60,973 nt of DNA. It comes from Collinsella sp. TM09-10AT. Lineage in GTDB: Bacteria > Actinomycetota > Coriobacteriia > Coriobacteriales > Coriobacteriaceae. Below are positions 49,310 to 60,851 of this stretch, one piece after another. The stretch spans positions 15,957 to 76,929 of the forward strand of contig NZ_QSOP01000010.1 of the NCBI RefSeq assembly GCF_003436275.1. The letters run 5' to 3'. Position numbers and translations under genes: made by a program. A model generated the notes under the pieces. It had not been told where the DNA came from and ran no database searches. It worked only from the letters and a program-made list of their open reading frames with translations. The first letter of the stretch is position 1. Every line of letters begins with the position of its first letter.

Positions 49310-49804
49310 GTGGCCGAGCACGAGCACACGCACGATCACGGTGTGGACGACGATGCGAGCTGCCGCTGCAGCGGCTCCAGCTCCGAGCTGGTCCGCTTTT
49401 CGGTCACCGCGCCCGACGACCTGCTGCGCCGCTTTGACGAGCAGATCGCGCGCCGCGGTGACGTGGCCAACCGATCCGAGGCCGTACGCGATCTGATTCG
49501 CGCCTCGATCGCTAAGCAGCAGATGCGCACGCCCGACGAGCAGGTCATCGGTTCGCTCACCATGATCTATGACCACCATACCGGCGATCTGACGCGCCGT
49601 CTGGACGAGGTGCAGCACGACTACACCGACGAGATCGTCTCGACCATGCACGTGCATCTGGACCACCACAACTGCCTGGAGATTCTGGCGCTCAAGGGTC
49701 GCGGCGAGCGTGTCTACGAGCTGGCCGACCGGTTGCTGGGGCTGCGCGGCGTTAAGCACGGCGAGCTCACGTGCGCCGCCACCAAGCAGAGCCTGGGGCT
49801 GTAG
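49310..49804 (+). CDS. nikR: Nickel-responsive regulator NikR
   Basis: A 164-residue regulator. The ribbon-helix-helix domain (27-70) has LVRFSVTAPDDLLRRFDEQI, and the ACT-like nickel domain has the full ligand set His103, His114, His116 and Cys122 in HVHLDHHNCLE. A 25-residue N-terminal extension rich in His and Cys (HEHTHDHG, CRC) is unusual and may add metal binding. The start GTG 49310 overlaps the upstream stop region by spacing of one base. It would repress nickel uptake genes and fits its position before hypF. Confidence 0.92.
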   Translation: MAEHEHTHDHGVDDDASCRCSGSSSELVRFSVTAPDDLLRRFDEQIARRGDVANRSEAVRDLIRASIAKQQMRTPDEQVIGSLTMIYDHHTGDLTRRLDEVQHDYTDEIVSTMHVHLDHHNCLEILALKGRGERVYELADRLLGLRGVKHGELTCAATKQSLGL

Positions 49805-49862
49805 CGGGATTTCCCACAGCGCACCTGCCATAAAGGGACAGGTTTCAACGAAGGAAGGTCGC

Positions 49863-52301
49863 ATGCGGCATGTGCATATTCATGTAACGGGCATTGTGCA
49901 GGGCGTTGGCATGCGGCCATTTGTGTATCGCGAGGCTATGGCGCATGGCATTTGCGGCTGGGTGCTCAACGCGGGCGATGGCGTGCACATCGAGGCGCAT
50001 GCTTCAGTCGAGGCACTCGACGGCTTTGTCGCCGCGCTGTCGGAGCACGCGCCTGCCGCGGCCCGCGTTGAGCATGTCGCTGTTGCAGACCTGGAGCCCG
50101 ACGCTTGGGATGCCGACGATGAGCAGGTCTTTCGTATTGTAGCGTCGCAGGATCAGACCGTGCACACGACGCTCATCTCTCCCGATATCGCCACCTGTGA
50201 CGACTGCCTGCACGAACTGTTCGACCCCACCGACCGACGCTATCACTACCCCTTTATCAACTGCACCAACTGTGGGCCGCGCTTTACCATCATCCGATCG
50301 CTGCCTTATGACCGAGCGGCCACGTCGATGGATTGCTTTCCTATGTGCCCCGAGTGCGCCGCAGAGTATGGCGACCCGCTTGACCGGCGCTTTCATGCGC
50401 AGCCCGATGCCTGCTATGACTGCGGGCCACATATTACCTGGCGCGAGGCGGCGGGCGACATGGGGCTCGAGGGCTCGGGGGCGATGCCGGCCGTCGGCAG
50501 CACGCGCGAAACCAGCGATGCCATTATTGACCGCTGTGTCGAGCTGCTGGCCAGCGGCGGTATTGTCGCCATCAAGGGGCTGGGCGGATTCCATATGGCC
50601 TGCAACGCCGCCAATGAGCAGGCGGTGGTCGAGCTGCGCCGTCGCAAGCGCCGCAGCAACAAGCCGCTTGCCGTTATGGTGCGCAGCCTTGCCGATACTG
50701 AACGCCTGTGCCATGTCGATGATGCCGAGCGCGACTTACTGGCCGGCAGCATCCGCCCCATTGTGCTGCTGCGCCGCCGTGTTGTTGGCGAGGGAGATTC
50801 CCCCGACGGCCTTACACTCGCGCCATCCGTCGCGCACGATCTACCCGAGCTCGGCGTCATGCTCCCCTATACACCGCTTCAGCATCTGCTGCTTGCAGCT
50901 GCCTCGTCGCATGGCATGCACGCGCTGGTCATGACCAGCGGAAACCTGAGCGAGGAACCTATCGAGACCGACGATGCCCTTGCATGGGAACATCTTGTTG
51001 CCGCCGGCATCGCCGACGCGCTACTTGGCAACGACCGTGCGATTCTCTCACGCTACGACGACTCCGTGGTACGTGTGGTCGACGGCACCGTCATGCCTGT
51101 GCGTCGCGCACGCGGATATGCGCCGCAACCGTTGTCGCTGCCGGCGCTCGACGGCACTGCACCCTGCGTGCTCGCCTGCGGGCCGCAGCAAAAAGCCACG
51201 ATCGCGCTCACGCGCGAGGACGCCGACGGCCATGTGGCCTGTTTTGTGTCGCAGCATATCGGCGATGTCGAAAACGGCGCGACCTTCGATGCCTGGAGCG
51301 CCGCCCGCGCACGTCTAGAAAACCTCTTTGACCTGACGCCTGCCGCCCTGGCATGCGACATGCATCCCAGCTATCTGTCGAGCCAGTGGGCGCGTGAGCG
51401 GGCACGGGAGCACAGTCTGCCGCTAATCGAAATCCAACATCATCATGCGCACATCGCGAGCGTAATGGCAGAGGCGATTGTCGCTGGCCGGCTTGCGCCC
51501 GATGCGCGCGTCCTCGGTATTGCCTTCGATGGTACGGGTGCCGGCACCGACGGCACCATATGGGGCGGTGAGTTTCTTATCGCCGGCCTTGCCGATTTTG
51601 AACGCGCCGCGCACCTGCGCACCTGGGCGCTGCCAGGCGGAGCCACATCCGTGCGCGATGCCCGGCGCAATGCCTTTGCCCTGCTGAGCGAGCTCGGCCT
51701 GCTCGAGCATCCGGGTGCCGCGGGGCTATTGGGCACCCTCGACGAGCAAACACGCAGCGTGACAGCCACCATGATCGAGCGCGGCATCAACAGCCCGCGT
51801 ACCAGCAGCATGGGGCGTCTCTTTGATGCCGCGGCAGCGATTCTGGGCATCTGCGGCAAGGCAACCTACGAGGGCGAACCCGCCATAGAACTCGAAGCCG
51901 CCGCCTGGCGCGCGCTCGGCGGTAAGACCGTTCGTCTCGACGACAATCACACAGGCGTATTCACGTCTGCCGACGACTCCCCCATCTTGGACCCCCAACC
52001 GCTCATCGAAGCTCTTCTGAATGGAATCGAGGCAGGCGCGCCGGCCGACAGGCTCGCCCTCGGGTTTCACATCGCCATTACGCACGCTACGACCCACATC
52101 GCACGCGAAATCTGCGCGCGCGAAGGCATCGATACCGTCGCGCTCTCGGGCGGTGTGTTCATGAACCGGCTTTTGCTTCAGCTCCTTACCCACGAACTCA
52201 AAGACGCCGGTCTTGCCGTCTTGGTCCCCCACGCTGTACCCGCCAACGACGGCTGCATCGCCTACGGTCAGGCCGCCATCGCTCGCGCTCGCCTCGCGTA
52301 G
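49863..52301 (+). CDS. hypF: Carbamoyltransferase HypF
   Basis: An 812-residue enzyme supplying the carbamoyl group that becomes the CN ligands of NiFe hydrogenase. Domains in order: acylphosphatase (GIVQGVGMRPFVYR, 10-90), zinc fingers (CDDCLHELFD, CTNCG, CPECAAEYGD, CYDCG, about 110-190), YrdC-like ATP domain (GGIVAIKGLGGFHMACNAAN, about 230-400) and Kae1-like carbamoyltransferase (IQHHHAHIASVMAE, about 520, and LSGGVFMNRLLLQ). ATG 49863 follows GAAGGAAGG. The length is slightly above typical. First hyp gene of the nikR-hypFCDE cluster. Confidence 0.96.
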   Translation: MRHVHIHVTGIVQGVGMRPFVYREAMAHGICGWVLNAGDGVHIEAHASVEALDGFVAALSEHAPAAARVEHVAVADLEPDAWDADDEQVFRIVASQDQTVHTTLISPDIATCDDCLHELFDPTDRRYHYPFINCTNCGPRFTIIRSLPYDRAATSMDCFPMCPECAAEYGDPLDRRFHAQPDACYDCGPHITWREAAGDMGLEGSGAMPAVGSTRETSDAIIDRCVELLASGGIVAIKGLGGFHMACNAANEQAVVELRRRKRRSNKPLAVMVRSLADTERLCHVDDAERDLLAGSIRPIVLLRRRVVGEGDSPDGLTLAPSVAHDLPELGVMLPYTPLQHLLLAAASSHGMHALVMTSGNLSEEPIETDDALAWEHLVAAGIADALLGNDRAILSRYDDSVVRVVDGTVMPVRRARGYAPQPLSLPALDGTAPCVLACGPQQKATIALTREDADGHVACFVSQHIGDVENGATFDAWSAARARLENLFDLTPAALACDMHPSYLSSQWARERAREHSLPLIEIQHHHAHIASVMAEAIVAGRLAPDARVLGIAFDGTGAGTDGTIWGGEFLIAGLADFERAAHLRTWALPGGATSVRDARRNAFALLSELGLLEHPGAAGLLGTLDEQTRSVTATMIERGINSPRTSSMGRLFDAAAAILGICGKATYEGEPAIELEAAAWRALGGKTVRLDDNHTGVFTSADDSPILDPQPLIEALLNGIEAGAPADRLALGFHIAITHATTHIAREICAREGIDTVALSGGVFMNRLLLQLLTHELKDAGLAVLVPHAVPANDGCIAYGQAAIARARLA

Positions 52302-52447
52302 ACGGCGTTGCGATAGGCTGTTTTGCCAGCCTGCGCGCCGCCGTCTCACAGGTGTAACGCGTTTGCTCGTGACTCCCGCGAGCGCTACCATCAACTGATG
52401 GGTAATTAGGCGCCTGTCCAGCGCAAAACGTATAAAAGGGGAACATT

Positions 52448-52708
52448 ATGTGCCTTGCCGTTCCCGGTAAAGTGGTCAAACGCGACGACGACCTTAAGGC
52501 GACCGTCGACATGATGGGCATCGAGCGCCCCATTTCGCTGCGCCTCGTGCCGACGGCACAGGTAGGCGACTATATTCTCGTGCACGCCGGCTTTGGCATT
52601 CAGATTGTCGACGAGCAGGAAGCCCAAGAGACACTCGAGCTCGTCAATACCATGACCGAGCTGGCCGAAGAGGACCAACTCGCCACCAACCCGGCCGAGG
52701 CATACTAG
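52448..52708 (+). CDS. hypC: Hydrogenase maturation chaperone HypC
   Basis: An 86-residue chaperone that delivers the Fe(CN)2CO unit with HypD. It begins MCLAVPGKVV, with the essential Cys2, and has GDYILVHAGFGIQIVDEQEA near the middle. GGGGAA lies before the ATG. The C-terminal acidic helix is normal. Its stop overlaps the GTG of hypD by one base. Confidence 0.95.
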   Translation: MCLAVPGKVVKRDDDLKATVDMMGIERPISLRLVPTAQVGDYILVHAGFGIQIVDEQEAQETLELVNTMTELAEEDQLATNPAEAY

Positions 52709-53820
52709 TGGCGGCGGCGCAGCCGGTTCGCTCCGGTATCGACTTTTCGGCATTTCGCGACCCCAAGCTGGCCCGCGAGCTCATCGATCGTATTCATGAG
52801 CTTGTCGGCAACCGCAGCATCAACCTTATGGAAGTCTGCGGTACGCATACCGTGAGCATTGGCCGCTATGGCTTTCATTCCATTATGCCGACGGGGCTCA
52901 AACTGCTAAGCGGCCCGGGGTGCCCCGTTTGCGTCACCGCCAACCGCGACATCGATCACGCAATCGCGCTTTCCAACATGGACGGCGCCATCATCACCAC
53001 CTTTGGCGACATGATGCGCGTGCCCGGATCGTCCACCTCGCTTGCCGCGCAAAAGGCGGCGGGGCGCGACATCCGCATCGTCTATTCTCCGCTCGACGCA
53101 CTCGACATTGCCGAGCAAAATCCCGAACGCCCGGTCATCTTTATGGGCGTCGGCTTTGAGACCACAACGCCCACCATTGCCGCCGCCATCCTAGAGGCCG
53201 ACGCGCGCGAGCTCCAGAACTTCTCGGTCTACTGTGCTCACAAGACCACGCCGCCGGCTCTGCGTGCGATCTCCAACGACCCCGAAACGACCATCGACGG
53301 CTTTATCCTGCCTGGTCACGTCGCTACCATCACGGGCCTGGCACCCTTTAGGTTTTTGGTCGATGAGTTCGAGACCCCCGGCGTAGTCACCGGGTTTGAG
53401 CCGGTCGATATCTTGCAGGGCATCTGCATGCTGGTCCAGATGGTTGTCGAGCACAGGCCCGCAATCGACAACGCCTACCGCCGTGGCGTCAATGCAGACG
53501 GCAATCCCGTAGCGCGCCAGCTGGTCGAGCAGGTGTTTGAGCCGTGCGACACCACGTGGCGCGGACTGGGACCGATTGCGGCTTCGGGTCTTTCCATCCG
53601 ACCCGAATTCGCGCGCTTTGATGCCGGCGCCCGCTTTGATGTGCCCGTTGAGGCGACGGTCGAGCCACGCGGGTGCCGCTGCGGCGACGTGCTGCGCGGA
53701 GCCATCACGCCGAGCGACTGCCCGCTGTTCGGCCACGCATGTACGCCCGAACACCCCGTCGGCCCCTGCATGGTGAGCTCCGAAGGCAGCTGCGCGGCGT
53801 ACTTTAGATACCGCGACTAG
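52708..53820 (+). CDS. hypD: Hydrogenase maturation scaffold HypD
   Basis: A 370-residue iron-sulfur scaffold on which Fe(CN)2CO is assembled. Signatures: VCGTHTVSIGRYG, LLSGPGCPVCVT, TTFGDMMRVPGS, FMGVGFETTTPT and, near the end, CRCGDVLRGAITPSDCPLFG and CTPEHPVGPCMVS. The GTG start at 52708 overlaps the hypC stop, implying coupling. Confidence 0.95.
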   Translation: MAAAQPVRSGIDFSAFRDPKLARELIDRIHELVGNRSINLMEVCGTHTVSIGRYGFHSIMPTGLKLLSGPGCPVCVTANRDIDHAIALSNMDGAIITTFGDMMRVPGSSTSLAAQKAAGRDIRIVYSPLDALDIAEQNPERPVIFMGVGFETTTPTIAAAILEADARELQNFSVYCAHKTTPPALRAISNDPETTIDGFILPGHVATITGLAPFRFLVDEFETPGVVTGFEPVDILQGICMLVQMVVEHRPAIDNAYRRGVNADGNPVARQLVEQVFEPCDTTWRGLGPIAASGLSIRPEFARFDAGARFDVPVEATVEPRGCRCGDVLRGAITPSDCPLFGHACTPEHPVGPCMVSSEGSCAAYFRYRD

Positions 53821-53868
53821 CCCGGACGCCCCCACGTACCGGCACCACCCACGATTGGAGTTTTCGAT

Positions 53869-54903
53869 ATGTCCCGTAATGCCACCGATAGCACTGTCCT
53901 GCTGGGCCACGGCTCCGGCGGCCAGATGATGAAGCGCATTATCGATGAGGTCTTTCTGGATGCCTTTGGGTCGCCCGAGCTGCTCGCGGGCAACGATGCC
54001 GGCGTCGCTGCGCTGCCCGCAAGCGGGCGAATCGCCATGTCGACCGACAGCTTTGTGGTAACGCCGCAGTTCTTCCCCGGCGGCAATATCGGCCGCCTCG
54101 CCGTATGTGGAACCGTCAACGACGTCGCGACCTCGGGCGCCAACGTGCGCTACCTCTCATGCGGCTTTATCCTCGAAGAGGGCTATCCCATGGACAAGCT
54201 CCGCCAGATCGTTCAGACCATGGCCGAAACGGCACATGAGGCAGGCGTGAAGATTATCACCGGCGACACCAAGGTGGTCGAGCGTGGAGGTGCCGACGGC
54301 GTCTACATCAATACCGCCGGCGTGGGCGAAGTGCCCGCGGGCGTAGCGCTCAGCGGTGCAAACTGTCGGCCCGGCGATGTCATCCTGGTGTCGGGTACGC
54401 TAGGCGACCACGGCATCGCCATCATGAGCCAGCGCGAGGGCTTGGCGTTTTCGAGCAACATCGAAAGCGACGCCGCACCGCTCAATCATCTGATTGCCGA
54501 CGTGCTCGCCGCCGCCCCCGACACCCGCTGCTTCCGCGACCCCACGCGCGGCGGCCTGGCATCCACGCTCAACGAGTTTGCCCAGGCCAGCGGCGTTGCC
54601 ATGGAGATCGACGAGGATGCCGTGCCCGTGCGCCCCGACGTGCAGGCCGCCTGCGAGATGCTCGGTTACGATGTGCTGCAGGTGGCAAACGAGGGCAAGA
54701 TGGTTGCCGTGGTGCCGGCCGAGCAGGCCGATGCCGCACTGACGGCCATGCGCGCCGCGCGCTACGGCGAAAACGCCGCGATTATCGGTCGCGCGCTGCC
54801 GCTTGCCGAGGGCGCCCGTCCCGCCGTGCGCGTACGCACCGGCTGGGGATCGACCCGCATCCTCGACATGCTCGTAGGAGAACAGCTGCCGAGAATTTGC
54901 TAG
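53869..54903 (+). CDS. hypE: Hydrogenase maturation protein HypE
   Basis: A 344-residue PurM-like enzyme that dehydrates the carbamoyl group to a cyano group. It ends in the required PRIC with Cys344, the modified residue. Other blocks are LLGHGSGGQMM, STDSFVVTPQFFPGGNIG, GTVNDVATSGA and TGDTKVVERG. The start codon follows TTGGAG. Last gene of the cluster; hypB is not next to it. Confidence 0.96.
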   Translation: MSRNATDSTVLLGHGSGGQMMKRIIDEVFLDAFGSPELLAGNDAGVAALPASGRIAMSTDSFVVTPQFFPGGNIGRLAVCGTVNDVATSGANVRYLSCGFILEEGYPMDKLRQIVQTMAETAHEAGVKIITGDTKVVERGGADGVYINTAGVGEVPAGVALSGANCRPGDVILVSGTLGDHGIAIMSQREGLAFSSNIESDAAPLNHLIADVLAAAPDTRCFRDPTRGGLASTLNEFAQASGVAMEIDEDAVPVRPDVQAACEMLGYDVLQVANEGKMVAVVPAEQADAALTAMRAARYGENAAIIGRALPLAEGARPAVRVRTGWGSTRILDMLVGEQLPRIC

Positions 54904-54992
54904 CGGCTGCTCTGCAAGCTGCTCAGCATCCGGCCACAATCGGCCCGCCCATTTTCACTGGGACGTTGGCCCACTCAAACTGCGAGGAGATG

Positions 54993-55033
54993 GAAGGGCC
55001 CTCCTGCCGAGCTGATCGGTAGGAGGGCCCTTC
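54993..55033. terminator. 18-bp-stem bidirectional terminator
   Basis: 54993-55010 and 55016-55033 pair (one G-T) around GCTGA, GAAGGGCCCTCCT at the base. It lies between hypE and the convergent surface-protein gene and can serve both. Confidence 0.75.
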
Positions 55034-55084
55034 GCTTTGCAAGACCATACTCCTTGCAGTATTTACCTGGTAGGCAGAGGCTCG

Positions 55085-58000
55085 CTACGCCGCGCGGCGT
55101 TTGGTGTAGACAAACCAGCCGCCGACGGCCCCGATACCGACGATGCCCACGGCAACGCCAGCGATAGCAAAGCCGTTTGGACCCGCGTCCGCAGCCTTGT
55201 TGGCGGCGCCGGCGCTCAACGCGGCGGTCTTGCCGGACGTACCCGACTTTTTGCCGCTCTTGTCTGTCTTACCGGCGACGGAAGACTCCGTCAAATCCTT
55301 CTTGCCGGATTCAGCCTCGTCCTTGGAATCGCCAGCTGCCTTGGCGCCCTCGCGCGAGGAAGCACCGGCCATCTTGGCGGCCACAGGAGCCATTACGCCC
55401 GCAAAACCGCCGGTCCCGTTGCCGGCACCGCCGTCCGACCCGGCACCCGGCGTCAGGACGCCCGGCGCCACCGTGGGCTTCTGCGGGTCCTTGCTGCTCG
55501 AGCCCTTGCCCGCCGTCACGGCCGTCTTCCAGGCAATCGTCTCTCCCGAGGAGACACGATATGTCGTGAGCGCGCGGAGCGCCTGCTCGGTCGCCATGGC
55601 GTTGGCCGCGCCGCCCTTGCTGTGCGCATAGCCGTTGCCGCCGTCCACGCGGTACAGGTCCAGCGCGCAGACCACGTTGGTCACAGCATTTGCAAACCCG
55701 TTGACGGGGTTGGCCGGGTCTCGGTCGAGCGAAAGCAGCGCGAGGATCACCTGGGCATTGGCCTCGGCAGAACCAAAGTCGCAGGTGCCCGCATTCATCT
55801 TGCCCTTGAGGTAGGAGAGGCCATTCTCGATGGCAGCATCGACCTTGGTGTCAACCGCGTAAGGCGCCACGGCCTGGATCGCCATAGCCGTCAGGTCCAC
55901 GTCGCCCAGGCGCGTACCCTCCACAGCCGCGTCGCTGCCGAGGAGCTCACAGACGGCATCCACGAGACTCGCGCACGTCCAGGTGGAGCCGGCGGGCGCA
56001 TCCGAGCCGCTCGCATTGAGCGCCATCAGCGCGAAGATCTTCTCGTTGGCGCGCGCCATATCGGTGCGGCTGCAGATGAGCTCGACCAGGTTGACGCCGT
56101 CATAGTTGGTGATGTCCTTGCCTATGGCGGAGAGAGCCAGCGCCACACGCTCGGTCTCGGTCAGAGCGCAGGTCGCACTCCCCCACTCGGCCTTGTGCTC
56201 GGCCAGCGAGGCATGGTAGTTGTCGAGCAGCTTGGAATCGATCTTGCGGCCCGCCTTGGCAAAGTCGTAGATCTCCCACTCGTCGCCGTACTGGAAGGCG
56301 TCGGAGCTGCGGCGCGCGTCGATGAACGCAGCGGCAGCGTCGATGCCCGCCGAGGCGGACTCACTCGTGGCGGGGCTCGCGGCCACACCGGCCACGGTGA
56401 TGGTAAGCGTCACGGGCTCGGCGGGGGCAGTCGTGTCCACCGGCGTACCCGTCGCGACCACCGTGCCGGCCGAAAGCGCCGTCACCGTGTAGTCGCTCGA
56501 GGCCACGTACAGGCCGTCGTCGGGAGCGCCGTCGACGTGCTTCCAAGCGCCCTTCTCGTTGCGGTCGATGCTCACGATCCCCGAGGCGTCCTTGCCGTCG
56601 AGCGTCTTGAACGTCCAGGTGAGGCCGGGTTCGGTCACGCTCCAGCCGTCCGCGTCGTTCTTGCCGGTAAAGGCCAGGTCGAGCTTTTGCGCCGAGCCGG
56701 CCTTGAGGTAGAGGCTGTCCGTGCCGGCCGTCACGCTCGCAAGCGGATTTTGGTAAGCATAAGTCACGTCGCACGACGCGCTGATGACCTTGCCATCGGC
56801 GTCCGTGTCGGGCAGCGTCGCGGTAAACGTGGTGGTGCCAGCCTTGTACGCCGTGTAGCCGATCTCGCCCGCGGTGGTGTAGGCCGCCACGGCAGGATCG
56901 CTGCTCGTCACGGTAAAGTTGTCGCGGTTGGTGGCGTTGTCGGGCGCCACCACCGGGCGTGCGTGATCGGTCAAAAACGCGCCGCGCTCGGAGAGTGGGC
57001 TGCGGCCCTGCAGGTAGACGGTGGCGCCGTCCTCGTTATAGCCCATCGAGATGGACGTGGCGGCCACGGCTTCGGACGTCAGCGTCACGCTCTTGGAGCC
57101 GGCGCCCGCAGATGCGGCGTCGCGCGGGGTAACGGTAATCGTGGCACTGCCGGCATGCTTGAAGTAAAAGCAGGCCGAGTAGTCGTTGCTGTAGATGGTC
57201 GTAGGATCGCTCGAGGCAAAGTGGAAGCGGCTGAACGAGACGGGCACGTACTCGCCCTTATCGGCATCGACGTAATGCACGCGAATCTCGAGGTTGCGCA
57301 CCTCGGAGCCCTGGACGGTAGCCGTACCATCGGTCACGTTGCTCACGGTGCCGTCGGAGGCACGATACCACAGCTCAAAGTCGTCGAACTGCTTGGCTTT
57401 GGCCTTGATCTTGATGGTAGCCACGGTCTGCTCGGAGCCATCGGCCTTGCGCTCGGTGGCGGTCACCGTGCCGGTAGCGTTGTCGTAGACGTAGAGCTCT
57501 CCCGTGGACTCGTTGATGCCGATGTTGCCGCGGTTGGCGTCATCGGTGCCCCAGGTGATGGTGCTCGTGGCCGGGACGCCCTTAAGTGCAAAGACGCCAA
57601 GTTTGCGGTAGGCGTCCACAGCATCAGGCGAAACCTCGAGCATATGGCCGGCAACCGTCTGGCTGGTGCCGTCGTTGGCCGTGAAGCTCACGGTGTAGGC
57701 GTCGGCGGGCGTGGTGTCCTCGGGCGCCTGGTAGCTGTTGCCCGAGCCAAAGACCGGCGTGCCATTTTTATCGATACCCCAGCTGCTACCGTTGGCGCCG
57801 CAGTTGGCGTTGATAAGATCGGCGAAGGCATCGGTGGCCATGTCGGCGGGGTCGACGGCATAGGAGTTGACGAATGCCGAGGCGGGAGCGTCCATCTTGT
57901 TGGTGAGGAATGCGCCCCAGTAGGTGTTGACGAGCTGGCCCGCGCTATAGGTCGCGAACAGCGCGCCCGCTGTGCCCTCGGAGGTCGACACGCAGTTGGA

Positions 58001-59629
58001 CACGATGCCGCCGTCGAGCGTACGCGCAAAGCCCGCAACGCCCTTGCCGGTCACACTCGTGGAGCAGTTGAGCACGGCACCCTGAACCTTGTTGCCCAGG
58101 GGGCCGAACGCCTTACCGTCCGTCGCCTGCTTGAGTTCACCGGAAAACGAGATGTTCTGCACCACGCCCGTGGAGGCAACGCCGTCCATGAGCGACTTCA
58201 CGCCGCCACCGTTGGCGAAGGTGATGGTGTGGCCCTGGCCGTCGAGCGTGCCCGCGAGCATGCCCATGGGGGCAAAGAACCAGCTGTCATCGATGGTGAT
58301 GTCGTTGTCGAGAACGTAGTAGGCGTCGGCGTCGGCGGGCTTGAACTTGTTTTCGAGGTCGCTCTGCGAGCTCAGGCGCACTACGTTCTGCGGCCGAGCC
58401 ACGGGCTCGGTGGGCTTGGGCTTCTCGAGTGCGGCAATGGCATCGGTGAGCGCCTTGGTTGCGCCGTTGACCTCGACCTGTGCGGCATCGTCGTTGGCGT
58501 AGACGTCCTGGGCGCTCACAAGGGCCTCGGCGAGCTTCGACCAGCTCTCGGCCGTGTAGTCGCCCTCGACCCTGGCGCTGGCATCGTCAATCGCAGCCTT
58601 AAGGGCATCCTTGTTCACGACGACCGCAGCACCGCCCGAGACCAGCACGGGCAAACCGCCCTGTGCAGACCAGCTAAAGCCGGTGGCAGGAGCATCGGTG
58701 TTGAGCTTATCGACCGAGGCCTGGGTCTTGAGGTCGTCGACAGAGATTTTGCTGCCGAAGGAAGAATCATTGCCAAAACCGCAAGCCTGGTCGCCCGCGG
58801 TGAAGAGGTTGTTGACCATAGCACCGGAGCTATACCGGCAAACGAGACCATGAGCGAAATAGCCCGACATCGATCCGGAAACGTAAGAGTTGATTACAGA
58901 CCCACCGTTGAGCGTTCCCACCAGGCCACCGTAATCGGCCCAAGTGCCGCCATCGCTCAAAGTGACCGTCGACCAGCACATCTGCACGGTTCCCGAGCAA
59001 TTGATCGCAAGGGCGCCCTCATAATCGCCCATGGTTGCCCGGCCCGTCACGCCCAGATTCTGCACCGTGCCAGTCACGCTCTTCGCAAGTGCCTTGCCGT
59101 TAAGCACGATGCTGTGGCCCTGGCCATCGAGCGTGCCGGCCACGGTCTCGATCTGCTGGTCGGCGCCAAGACTGATATCCGCCGTAAGCCTCACGACGGC
59201 CCCAGCCTCGATGGTGGTAGGCAGCTCGCCAGCAGAAGAGACCGTCATGGTCTCGCCGGCCTTGGCAACGCGCACGTCACGTGCCTGCTGAACATCGGCG
59301 TCGTCATCGTCGACGTTCACCGCAGCGGCGTTCTGCCCGTCCGCACTCAGCATGGCGGCAAGCCCCTCATCGGCAGACGGAGCAACGTCGGATCTTGCCT
59401 CGTCCGCCGACGCCTCGGCGCCTTCAGCACCCGTCTGCTCGTCCGCAGTGAAACTCGACTCGTCGGCATTCTCGGCAGTATCCGCCTGCTGCGAGGCCTG
59501 GGCCTGCGCCTGCACAGCGATCTCTGCCACGCCCTCGGCAAATGCCGACGTACCCGGCATCGACCAGACTAGCAGCACCGAGAAAGCAGCGGCCCCCAGG
59601 CGCTTGAGCATAATGTTGTTTCGCGTCAC
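55085..59629 (-). CDS. Giant surface protein under a cobalamin riboswitch
   Basis: A 1514-residue exported protein. The signal peptide ends SAFA near residue 31, then comes an acidic low-complexity stretch. Two beta-helix regions with GLUG-like repeats (about 146-276, GTLDGQGHSIVLNG, GGLVGTLNGGSVINSYV; and 416-610) flank a FIVAR-like helical segment (about 338-400). Ig-like beta domains follow (about 646-1076). Residues 1106-1363 form an alpha/alpha-toroid of the terpenoid-cyclase/transcobalamin type (GSAEANAQVILALLSLD; GGAANAMATEQALRALTTYR). A Gly/Lys/Ser linker and one membrane helix with KRRAA anchor the C-terminus, without LPXTG. GTG 59629 follows AAGGAG. The riboswitch suggests corrinoid binding; this is inference. 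Confidence 0.8.
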   Translation of the reverse strand: MTRNNIMLKRLGAAAFSVLLVWSMPGTSAFAEGVAEIAVQAQAQASQQADTAENADESSFTADEQTGAEGAEASADEARSDVAPSADEGLAAMLSADGQNAAAVNVDDDDADVQQARDVRVAKAGETMTVSSAGELPTTIEAGAVVRLTADISLGADQQIETVAGTLDGQGHSIVLNGKALAKSVTGTVQNLGVTGRATMGDYEGALAINCSGTVQMCWSTVTLSDGGTWADYGGLVGTLNGGSVINSYVSGSMSGYFAHGLVCRYSSGAMVNNLFTAGDQACGFGNDSSFGSKISVDDLKTQASVDKLNTDAPATGFSWSAQGGLPVLVSGGAAVVVNKDALKAAIDDASARVEGDYTAESWSKLAEALVSAQDVYANDDAAQVEVNGATKALTDAIAALEKPKPTEPVARPQNVVRLSSQSDLENKFKPADADAYYVLDNDITIDDSWFFAPMGMLAGTLDGQGHTITFANGGGVKSLMDGVASTGVVQNISFSGELKQATDGKAFGPLGNKVQGAVLNCSTSVTGKGVAGFARTLDGGIVSNCVSTSEGTAGALFATYSAGQLVNTYWGAFLTNKMDAPASAFVNSYAVDPADMATDAFADLINANCGANGSSWGIDKNGTPVFGSGNSYQAPEDTTPADAYTVSFTANDGTSQTVAGHMLEVSPDAVDAYRKLGVFALKGVPATSTITWGTDDANRGNIGINESTGELYVYDNATGTVTATERKADGSEQTVATIKIKAKAKQFDDFELWYRASDGTVSNVTDGTATVQGSEVRNLEIRVHYVDADKGEYVPVSFSRFHFASSDPTTIYSNDYSACFYFKHAGSATITVTPRDAASAGAGSKSVTLTSEAVAATSISMGYNEDGATVYLQGRSPLSERGAFLTDHARPVVAPDNATNRDNFTVTSSDPAVAAYTTAGEIGYTAYKAGTTTFTATLPDTDADGKVISASCDVTYAYQNPLASVTAGTDSLYLKAGSAQKLDLAFTGKNDADGWSVTEPGLTWTFKTLDGKDASGIVSIDRNEKGAWKHVDGAPDDGLYVASSDYTVTALSAGTVVATGTPVDTTAPAEPVTLTITVAGVAASPATSESASAGIDAAAAFIDARRSSDAFQYGDEWEIYDFAKAGRKIDSKLLDNYHASLAEHKAEWGSATCALTETERVALALSAIGKDITNYDGVNLVELICSRTDMARANEKIFALMALNASGSDAPAGSTWTCASLVDAVCELLGSDAAVEGTRLGDVDLTAMAIQAVAPYAVDTKVDAAIENGLSYLKGKMNAGTCDFGSAEANAQVILALLSLDRDPANPVNGFANAVTNVVCALDLYRVDGGNGYAHSKGGAANAMATEQALRALTTYRVSSGETIAWKTAVTAGKGSSSKDPQKPTVAPGVLTPGAGSDGGAGNGTGGFAGVMAPVAAKMAGASSREGAKAAGDSKDEAESGKKDLTESSVAGKTDKSGKKSGTSGKTAALSAGAANKAADAGPNGFAIAGVAVGIVGIGAVGGWFVYTKRRAA

Positions 59630-59807
59630 CCGTTCTCCTTCTTTCGCGAACCTGCAATAGAGCCATGGCGAAGAAGGCGGGACAGGCGATACCCCGGCAG
59701 CACAAAGGCGCACGTCAGCCACCCTATCGGCAGCAAAACACACGCTCAGCAGCACCCCTTGTAGACCGGAATCCAGCGGCAAACAGAAAGGCCCTCGGTT
59801 TCGAGAA

Positions 59808-59913
59808 GAGCGCGGGCAGGTAATCTGGCTCGCGGGCGCGCCCGCACACAGTAACCGCCTTGCTCGGGATTCTCACCCGATTCCCCTTTATGCGCTCGCG
59901 CGCACCCGTGCTC
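59808..59913 (-). promoter_or_regulatory. Cobalamin riboswitch
   Basis: On the minus strand the leader reads GAATCGGGTGAGAATCCCGA (59883-59864), then GGCGGTTACTGTG, then the B12 box AGCCAGATTACCTGCC (59830-59815). GAGCACGGG (59913-59905) and CCCGCGCTC (59816-59808) close P1 with one mismatch. These are the conserved parts of the AdoCbl/MeCbl aptamer. It lies 178 nt before the surface-protein start; high cobalamin should reduce expression. Confidence 0.9.
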
Positions 59914-59937
59914 CGGCTTCTATTTTTTAACGGAGGA

Positions 59938-59967
59938 AGTGTACGTTACCGCAGGTAAATTGGTCAA
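59938..59967 (-). promoter_or_regulatory. Promoter of the riboswitch transcript
   Basis: TTGACC (59967-59962), an 18-bp spacer and TACACT (59943-59938) on the minus strand, placing transcription start near 59931, just ahead of the aptamer. Confidence 0.6.
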
Positions 59968-59993
59968 TGCACTACACAAAAACCGCCATATCC

Positions 59994-60007
59994 GAGCCAT
60001 ATGGCTC
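59994..60007. promoter_or_regulatory. 14-bp palindrome in the divergent gap
   Basis: GAGCCATATGGCTC is a perfect palindrome, with further partial symmetry outside (TCCGAGCC / GGCTCCCGGA). It lies between the riboswitch promoter and the phosphatase gene and could bind a regulator of either. Confidence 0.4.
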
Positions 60008-60185
60008 CCGGATAACCGCCTATAGGCAACCTCTATCGCCACCAGGCCGCTGACGAACCAAACCCACCCACAAGATTGAGCGGCCCGAATGCCCCCGCGG
60101 GACTTTTGACCCGCCCATTCCCGGCTGGGCGGCACGCGCTATTATGGTTGCCGTTTGCGTGAGCTATATAGATGGGAGCGTACCT

Positions 60186-60851
60186 ATGGCAGCTTTTTCC
60201 ACCGTGATCTTTGACCTTGACGGCACCATCCTCAACACGCTCGAGGACCTGGCGGCCGCCGGCAACCATACCTGCGAGACGCACGGCTGGCCTACGTTTG
60301 CCGTCGACGAGTACCGCTACAAGGTGGGAAACAGCATGCTCAAGCTGGTTGAGCGCTTTATGCCCGCCGAGTATGCGGGCGACGGCCGTATGTTTGAGCA
60401 GACGCTTACCGAGTTTAGGGCTTACTACGGCGAGCACAAGGAGGACCACACCGCCCCCTATGCCGACACGATCGAGATGCTCGACCGCTTGCGCGCCGCG
60501 GGTGTGCAGCTTGCCGTACTCACTAACAAGGACCACGTCTCGGCGGCTCCGCTTATCGAGAAATACTTTGGTTCCGAGCGCTTTGCGCTGGTGCAGGGCC
60601 GTGTCGATGCGTTTCCGCCCAAGCCCGAAGCACCCGTCACGCTGCATGTGATGGAAGAGCTGGGTGCCGATCCGGCAACCACGCTCTATGTGGGCGATTC
60701 CAATGTCGATATCCTGACCGGCCACAACGCCGGCCTTAAGAGTGCGGGCGTCAGCTGGGGCTTCCGCGGCCGCGCAGAGCTGGAAGCCGCCGGCGCCGAC
60801 TACGTGGTGGACACCCAGGCAGAGCTCACGGCGCTGGTACTGGGCGAGTAA
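60186..60851 (+). CDS. gph: HAD-family phosphatase (phosphoglycolate phosphatase-like)
   Basis: A 221-residue HAD hydrolase. Motif I is FDLDGTILNT (nucleophile Asp10-Asp12 region), motif II is LAVLTNKDH, motif III KPEAPVTLHVMEELG and motif IV VGDSNVDILTGHNAG. The cap domain (15-90) is of the small helical type. It is close to Gph/PGP, which removes phosphate from 2-phosphoglycolate, but substrates of this group vary. GGGAGCG lies before ATG 60186; an earlier frame has no site. Divergent from the riboswitch gene. Confidence 0.88.
   Translation: MAAFSTVIFDLDGTILNTLEDLAAAGNHTCETHGWPTFAVDEYRYKVGNSMLKLVERFMPAEYAGDGRMFEQTLTEFRAYYGEHKEDHTAPYADTIEMLDRLRAAGVQLAVLTNKDHVSAAPLIEKYFGSERFALVQGRVDAFPPKPEAPVTLHVMEELGADPATTLYVGDSNVDILTGHNAGLKSAGVSWGFRGRAELEAAGADYVVDTQAELTALVLGE

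Follow-up and report, generated by a model that had tools for sequence, protein, structure and literature searches.

A single-gene unit behind a cobalamin riboswitch

The window, which is the whole stretch of 60,973 nucleotides from Collinsella sp. TM09-10AT that was analysed, carries a reverse-strand gene for a giant surface protein and, upstream of it, a cobalamin riboswitch. The features of the locus are:

53869-54903, + strand: flanking gene, hypE (named from sequence)
54993..55033, no strand assigned: strong inverted repeat between the 3' ends of two convergent genes (read from sequence)
55085..59629, - strand: open frame of the giant surface protein gene, 1514 aa, stop included
55088..55183, - strand: C-terminal hydrophobic anchor and KRR tail, residues about 1483-1514 (read by eye)
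55514..56383, - strand: alpha/alpha toroid, residues 1083-1372 (AlphaFold2, Foldseek, VIA-align, profile A2)
55880..55903, - strand: motif DVDLTAMA, residues 1243-1250, in the toroid (alignment A2)
58424..58612, - strand: FIVAR domain, residues 340-402 (PF07554, 34.4 bits, cut-off 29.2)
58640..59278, - strand: repeat segment, residues about 118-330, read as a beta-helix in the preliminary description; no Pfam match
59537..59629, - strand: putative signal peptide region, residues 1-31 (hydrophobic stretch read by eye)
59627..59640, - strand: ribosome binding site AAGGAGAA and GTG start codon (sequence)
59782..59807, - strand: candidate expression platform, TTCTC complement and weak terminator-like hairpin (speculative)
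59798..59924, - strand: cobalamin riboswitch aptamer, compact form, B12 box GCCAGATTACCTGCC (RF00174 and model R1)
59938..59967, - strand: sigma-70-like promoter TTGACC-18-TACACT, directly upstream of the aptamer (consensus scan)
60144-60851, + strand: flanking gene, HAD-type phosphatase (named from sequence)

The open frame starts with a GTG codon at 59629, preceded by AAGGAGAA, and its stop lies at 55085. Since both flanking genes are on the + strand, the gene is a single-gene unit, as the preliminary description of this DNA had held. Hydrogenase maturation genes (hypF, hypD and hypE) were recognised by eye at 49710-54903 of the window. In the protein layout proposed earlier, the signal peptide corresponds to a hydrophobic N-terminus and the membrane anchor to a C-terminal hydrophobic helix followed by KRR, both read by eye, and the FIVAR domain scored above its cut-off. 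FIVAR was the only Pfam match of the protein at E values up to 1, and LPXTG was absent, by eye, from the C-terminus. The beta-helix and Ig-like stalk segments are plausible by eye and stay unconfirmed, with no Pfam or NCBIfam match in these regions; a sub-threshold Glug match was found in the relative from genome G021, which is 53% identical to the window protein. The orthologs in G001 and G029 are 92% identical to the window protein.

The covariance-model search proposed together with the cobalamin aptamer and its B12 box returned a match to the full length of the Rfam model RF00174 (model positions 1-189) at 59798-59924(-), with 48.1 bits and an E value of 5.5e-9. This score is above the curated gathering score of 31.5 bits, and the match is the sole cobalamin match inside the window. 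R1, a riboswitch model derived from 16 RF00174 matches in genomes of the same order (2 of the 16 from the toroid locus of G050), scored 59.2 bits at the identical place. The aptamer lies on the strand of the gene, in its 5' leader, and ends 168 nt from the GTG start; the upstream position is as first described, and the distance of 178 nt given at that time was counted from 59808. The sigma-70-like site is weak by itself, as one was found against 0.8 expected by chance in the scanned stretch. In the candidate platform, TTCTC (59803-59807) is complementary to GAGAA of aptamer loop L5 and overlaps the weak terminator-like hairpin, at which a tail is present; the pairing comprises 5 bases, and the L5 kissing-loop complement transfers poorly to the G021 riboswitch. 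As the leader folded no better than shuffled sequences (z 0.79), we claim no switching mechanism. The aptamer is also found upstream of the orthologs in G001, G029 and G066, and RF00174 scored above the gathering score at each of these three loci. In G021 it is more divergent: R1 gave 40.9 bits and RF00174 gave no report, and most of the core, the B12 box and loop L5 are retained.

The toroid domain and its fold

An alpha/alpha toroid had been proposed at about residues 1106-1363. The AlphaFold2 model of residues 1091-1372 (pLDDT 89.8, pTM 0.89) agrees with this, the predicted toroid spanning residues 1083-1372, and the toroid family profile A2 scored 317 bits on the window protein. The window protein is thus predicted to have the alpha6/alpha6 toroid that serves as a criterion of the transcobalamin, intrinsic factor and haptocorrin family. 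The comparison with transcobalamin was divided: with the toroid alone, Foldseek ranked transcobalamin as the best match (6.4e-4), but terpene cyclases were equally high by Z. The fold is also common to sugar epimerases. In a low-confidence profile alignment the motif DVDLTAMA falls opposite SVDTAAMA (Asp176) of human transcobalamin. Sequence-profile similarity to the carriers was not significant, with 0 carriers among 41 PDB matches at E up to 10 and an hhalign probability of 7.8% for toroid against carrier. No DUF4430 domain was found in the window protein (best score 5.0 bits), nor did any other frame of the window match one at E up to 1.

Riboswitch and gene are kept together in Collinsella

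The toroid is present in 4 of 43 Collinsella genomes (G001, G029, G066 and G021), and the four best R1 matches of the same 43 genomes are in these four, directly upstream of the gene. The pairing of riboswitch and gene is therefore not due to chance and is kept together in four Collinsella genomes, G001 being the nearest to the window among those compared. Weaker R1 matches, of 32.4 to 33.5 bits, occur in 16 further Collinsella genomes. In one of these, G007 (L237:5313-5465), the match lies ahead of a CbiK-like protein, and FecCD-like and ABC genes come next; the same order, behind an R1 match of 36.8 bits, is seen in G032 (L238), all these genes being named from sequence. This CbiK-like protein behind the riboswitch of other Collinsella is secreted, and its locus lies near CbiD.

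Precisely these 16 genomes encode a BtuC-like protein that shares at least 97% identity with the G007 one. In this comparison, which covered 42 genomes with G066 outside the set, the G007-type BtuC had no match at E up to 1e-20 in G001 and G029, and G021 had distant BtuC-like matches only (37% and 32%). CbiD was found in 17 of the 43 genomes, namely the same 16 and G032, and in none of the 4 toroid genomes; 22 further Collinsella genomes have neither CbiD nor toroid, and with such numbers the absence of CbiD from the toroid genomes is suggestive, not significant. A B12-binding-domain protein of about methionine synthase size was present in all 8 genomes examined. Each of the four toroid genomes has one such frame, of 855 to 887 aa, which from its size would be methionine synthase. 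Because they combine this protein with the lack of CbiD, the toroid Collinsella appear to need cobalamin and not to make it, and, in the three genomes searched, they appear to lack the G007-type BtuC.

Riboswitch and gene form a discrete insert of ~5.3 kb (window 54906-60188) between two conserved genes, where G007, G065 and G003 have 109 bp of unaligned sequence between the same two neighbours. G001 shares the gene order of the window; the G021 gene sits elsewhere. Judged from these alignments, the riboswitch and the toroid gene are a gained module. A relative 95% identical to the toroid protein of the window, P0016, represents 3,038 member sequences; given this cluster size, the toroid gene is common in some sequenced samples.

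Linkage beyond the genus

In the same order, RF00174 scored above the cut-off in 34 of 148 genomes. Examination of 40 regions showed cobalamin riboswitches followed by toroid genes in G048, G050, G095 and G125, so that the genome search first suggested for other Coriobacteriia did find the riboswitch-gene pair. Further along the G048 and G095 loci come a DUF4430 protein and components of a transporter. In G048 the double-toroid giant is separated from the cobalamin riboswitch by a 627-aa frame (L062:5260-7140) whose N-terminus is signal-like; this frame has no Pfam match and may be another component of capture.

Scanning genome contigs with the toroid profile gave at least 79 loci, of which the best 79 were used. 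Three are the Collinsella orthologs; the remaining 76 among the matches listed (1 Collinsella, the rest nearly all Firmicutes by title) were searched with R1. At E<1e-4, a riboswitch lies upstream on the same strand in 50/76 of the toroid loci among the matches listed, on the opposite strand in 2/76 and downstream in 4/76; where the full 10 kb upstream was available, the figure was 41/55 among the matches listed. By chance, about 0.4 loci would be expected to have one upstream, a rough estimate made by hand from 156 RF00174, not R1, matches across 39 such genomes, about 121 Mb in total. EcfT or EcfS was encoded on the same strand in 50 of the 76 loci among the matches listed, and on the opposite strand in 1 each. 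A riboswitch, a giant with in-chain DUF4430, a separate DUF4430 protein, EcfT and EcfS occurred together in 31 of these 76 listed loci, and neither riboswitch nor ECF parts in 16. The profiles used here were made with six sequences for DUF4430, four for EcfT and three for EcfS, most of them taken from loci within the 76.

The Enterococcus canis locus reads, in order, riboswitch, 2242-aa giant with cyclase-like and DUF4430 matches, 404-aa DUF4430 protein, CbiQ-family EcfT, fused EcfA pair (TIGR04520 above cut-off) and EcfS. In a Bacillota MAG (L153:1245-3496), 3 consecutive cobalamin riboswitch matches lie within 2.3 kb upstream of the toroid gene.

Carrier architecture and DUF4430 partners

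The protein search gave 214 relatives. When the best 120 of these and the query were examined, 80 of the 121 proteins had DUF4430 in the same chain; of the 29 nearest to the window protein, none did. In one relative, P0041, DUF4430 directly follows the toroid, as in transcobalamin. The model of this 436-residue toroid-DUF4430 unit (pLDDT 89.2, pTM 0.77) had only haptocorrin, transcobalamin and intrinsic factor as its top 15 PDB matches, with E values of 5.9e-10 to 2.4e-8, and the next match after the carriers was squalene-hopene cyclase (5.6e-5). It also matched the isolated transcobalamin beta domain (5no0, E 3.2e-3; 5np4, E 4.0e-3). The rmsd to the carriers is 22 to 24 A, the two domains matching singly with a different relative placement, and VIA-align on the same model spanned the toroid alone and ranked terpene cyclases first. 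When six DUF4430 proteins were used for a profile search of the PDB, the outcome was 20 chance-like matches and no carrier.

G029 has a 2449-aa frame with three DUF4430 domains (L199:8590-15936(-)), followed by a 298-aa DUF4430 frame. The C-terminal tail of this giant is 42% identical to the window protein over 1395-1513, and an AdoCbl-II-like riboswitch adjoins it upstream (L199:15945-16055(-); 30.5 bits against a cut-off of 36.5, E 0.0026). R1 also matches the leader of this giant and the corresponding locus of G066, as well as the start of the corresponding open frames in G001 and G007. In G021 there is only one DUF4430 match, and the stretch around that gene holds an unrelated lysine riboswitch (L202:123-289, 64.4 bits). 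No ECF parts were recognised by eye beside the Collinsella DUF4430 locus; ECF S-type proteins were found in all 8 genomes searched, none of them tied to B12.

From the DUF4430 giant behind a second riboswitch and its similar anchor in G029 we put forward, tentatively and with limited confidence, that Collinsella of this group may make a split transcobalamin. It would consist of the toroid giant and the DUF4430 giant, behind separate riboswitches, and the small DUF4430 protein; the giants would trap corrinoid between them at the surface, and Firmicutes and Coriobacteriia would hold a widespread carrier-like capture system. A split carrier of this kind could compete with host intrinsic factor and haptocorrin.

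A model for corrinoid capture and its alternatives

We consider it likely that the locus encodes a riboswitch-controlled, anchored surface protein that takes part in the extracellular capture of cobalamin or corrinoid by a Gram-positive cell, probably an undescribed route for catching B12 outside the cell. The riboswitch, the gene, the toroid fold, their conserved linkage, the operon-like context and the two-domain carrier-like fold of a relative are the findings behind it, and the apparent need of the toroid genomes for imported cobalamin also speaks for it. At low intracellular cobalamin the gene would be expressed, and at high cobalamin the aptamer would shut it off, OFF being the usual behaviour of cobalamin riboswitches. 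The anchored giant would project a transcobalamin-like toroid from the cell surface, and bound corrinoid would be handed to a membrane importer, probably with the help of DUF4430 proteins, the counterparts of the beta domain in transcobalamin. Many Firmicutes relatives have the giant, the DUF4430 protein and the ECF parts in a single stretch led by a riboswitch; the Collinsella relatives of the window have their pieces at separate loci. We infer the ligand and the direction of regulation, and for Collinsella also the partner and the importer. The corrinoid capture proposed for gut Coriobacteriia in the preliminary description thus stands as the best explanation, but it is not limited to Coriobacteriia, the 76 loci among the matches listed being nearly all from Firmicutes, and the window protein supplies the toroid half only.

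It seems unlikely to us that the toroid of this B12-regulated surface protein has another task, such as glycan binding, adhesion or the grasping of host B12 carriers, with the riboswitch acting as a sensor of nutrient status. Repeats and FIVAR fill much of the window protein in an adhesin-like manner, the toroid fold is shared with sugar epimerases and the protein is without DUF4430; however, relatives often share their stretch with ECF importer parts, which an adhesin would leave unexplained, and 80 of the 121 proteins (best 120 of 214 relatives and the query) have a carrier-like DUF4430 in chain, although none of the 29 closest does. A degenerate riboswitch, its pairing with the gene being a fossil without regulatory effect, is very improbable: the compact aptamer, at 48 bits, is below most above-cut-off RF00174 matches in the order (best, 110) and its leader folds like shuffled sequence, but the copies in G001, G029 and G066 score above the gathering score and the divergent G021 copy keeps most of the core, the B12 box and loop L5. 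An exported surface terpene or prenyl cyclase-like enzyme, an identity raised by the toroid fold and weak profile similarity shared with class II terpene cyclases (squalene-hopene cyclase, drimenyl-PP synthase), is scarcely credible because DxDD, the catalytic motif of these enzymes, is missing from 22 of 22 aligned toroid rows, and also in view of the B12 riboswitch and ECF context and of a protein that appears to be secreted and anchored, in a place where one would not expect a substrate of this kind.

Among the matches listed in a search of full-text literature, with subscription papers and preprints outside its scope, we found no description of these proteins, and the term "transcobalamin-like" was absent. 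Cobamide capture by Gram-positive gut bacteria is a largely open field, and acquisition in Firmicutes is called less known in the consulted part of a 2022 paper on Bacteroides B12-binding proteins (PMC8941943). If capture by the anchored toroid is true, a widespread B12-switched, carrier-like surface system would account for part of Gram-positive cobamide capture and would be a candidate competitor for host B12 carriers; it would bring a bacterial counterpart to the question of how intrinsic factor and transcobalamin arose, and suggest a role for giants named DUF4430, prenyltransferase-like or S-layer without a function in their names.

Comparison with known systems

BtuG and BtuH have the outer-membrane BtuB as partner, and to our knowledge Gram-positive bacteria are without it. 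In the consulted parts of PMC6143338 and PMC8941943, BtuG and BtuH of gut Bacteroides are, like the protein proposed here, surface-exposed B12-capture proteins from riboswitch-controlled uptake loci, but have other folds, a beta-propeller and a C-terminal domain that is reported to have no known structural homologs. ECF-CbrT likewise is an ECF-type cobalamin importer of a Gram-positive, and sits in nrdJ-cbrS-cbrT-pduO in L. delbrueckii; the toroid loci encode EcfT, a fused EcfA pair and EcfS, whereas the consulted part of PMC5997447 mentions no extracellular capture protein for CbrT. DUF4430 (PF14478), given as the C-terminal domain of transcobalamins in the part consulted of PMC4350170, is in partner proteins of the toroid loci and absent from the window protein. 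With transcobalamin, intrinsic factor and haptocorrin the window protein shares the alpha/alpha toroid, and with transcobalamin an SVDxxAMA-like motif in register with Asp176; the relative combining toroid and DUF4430 matches these carriers first in the PDB. In contrast to them, the window protein has the toroid half only and appears to be anchored to the bacterial cell on a long putative stalk.
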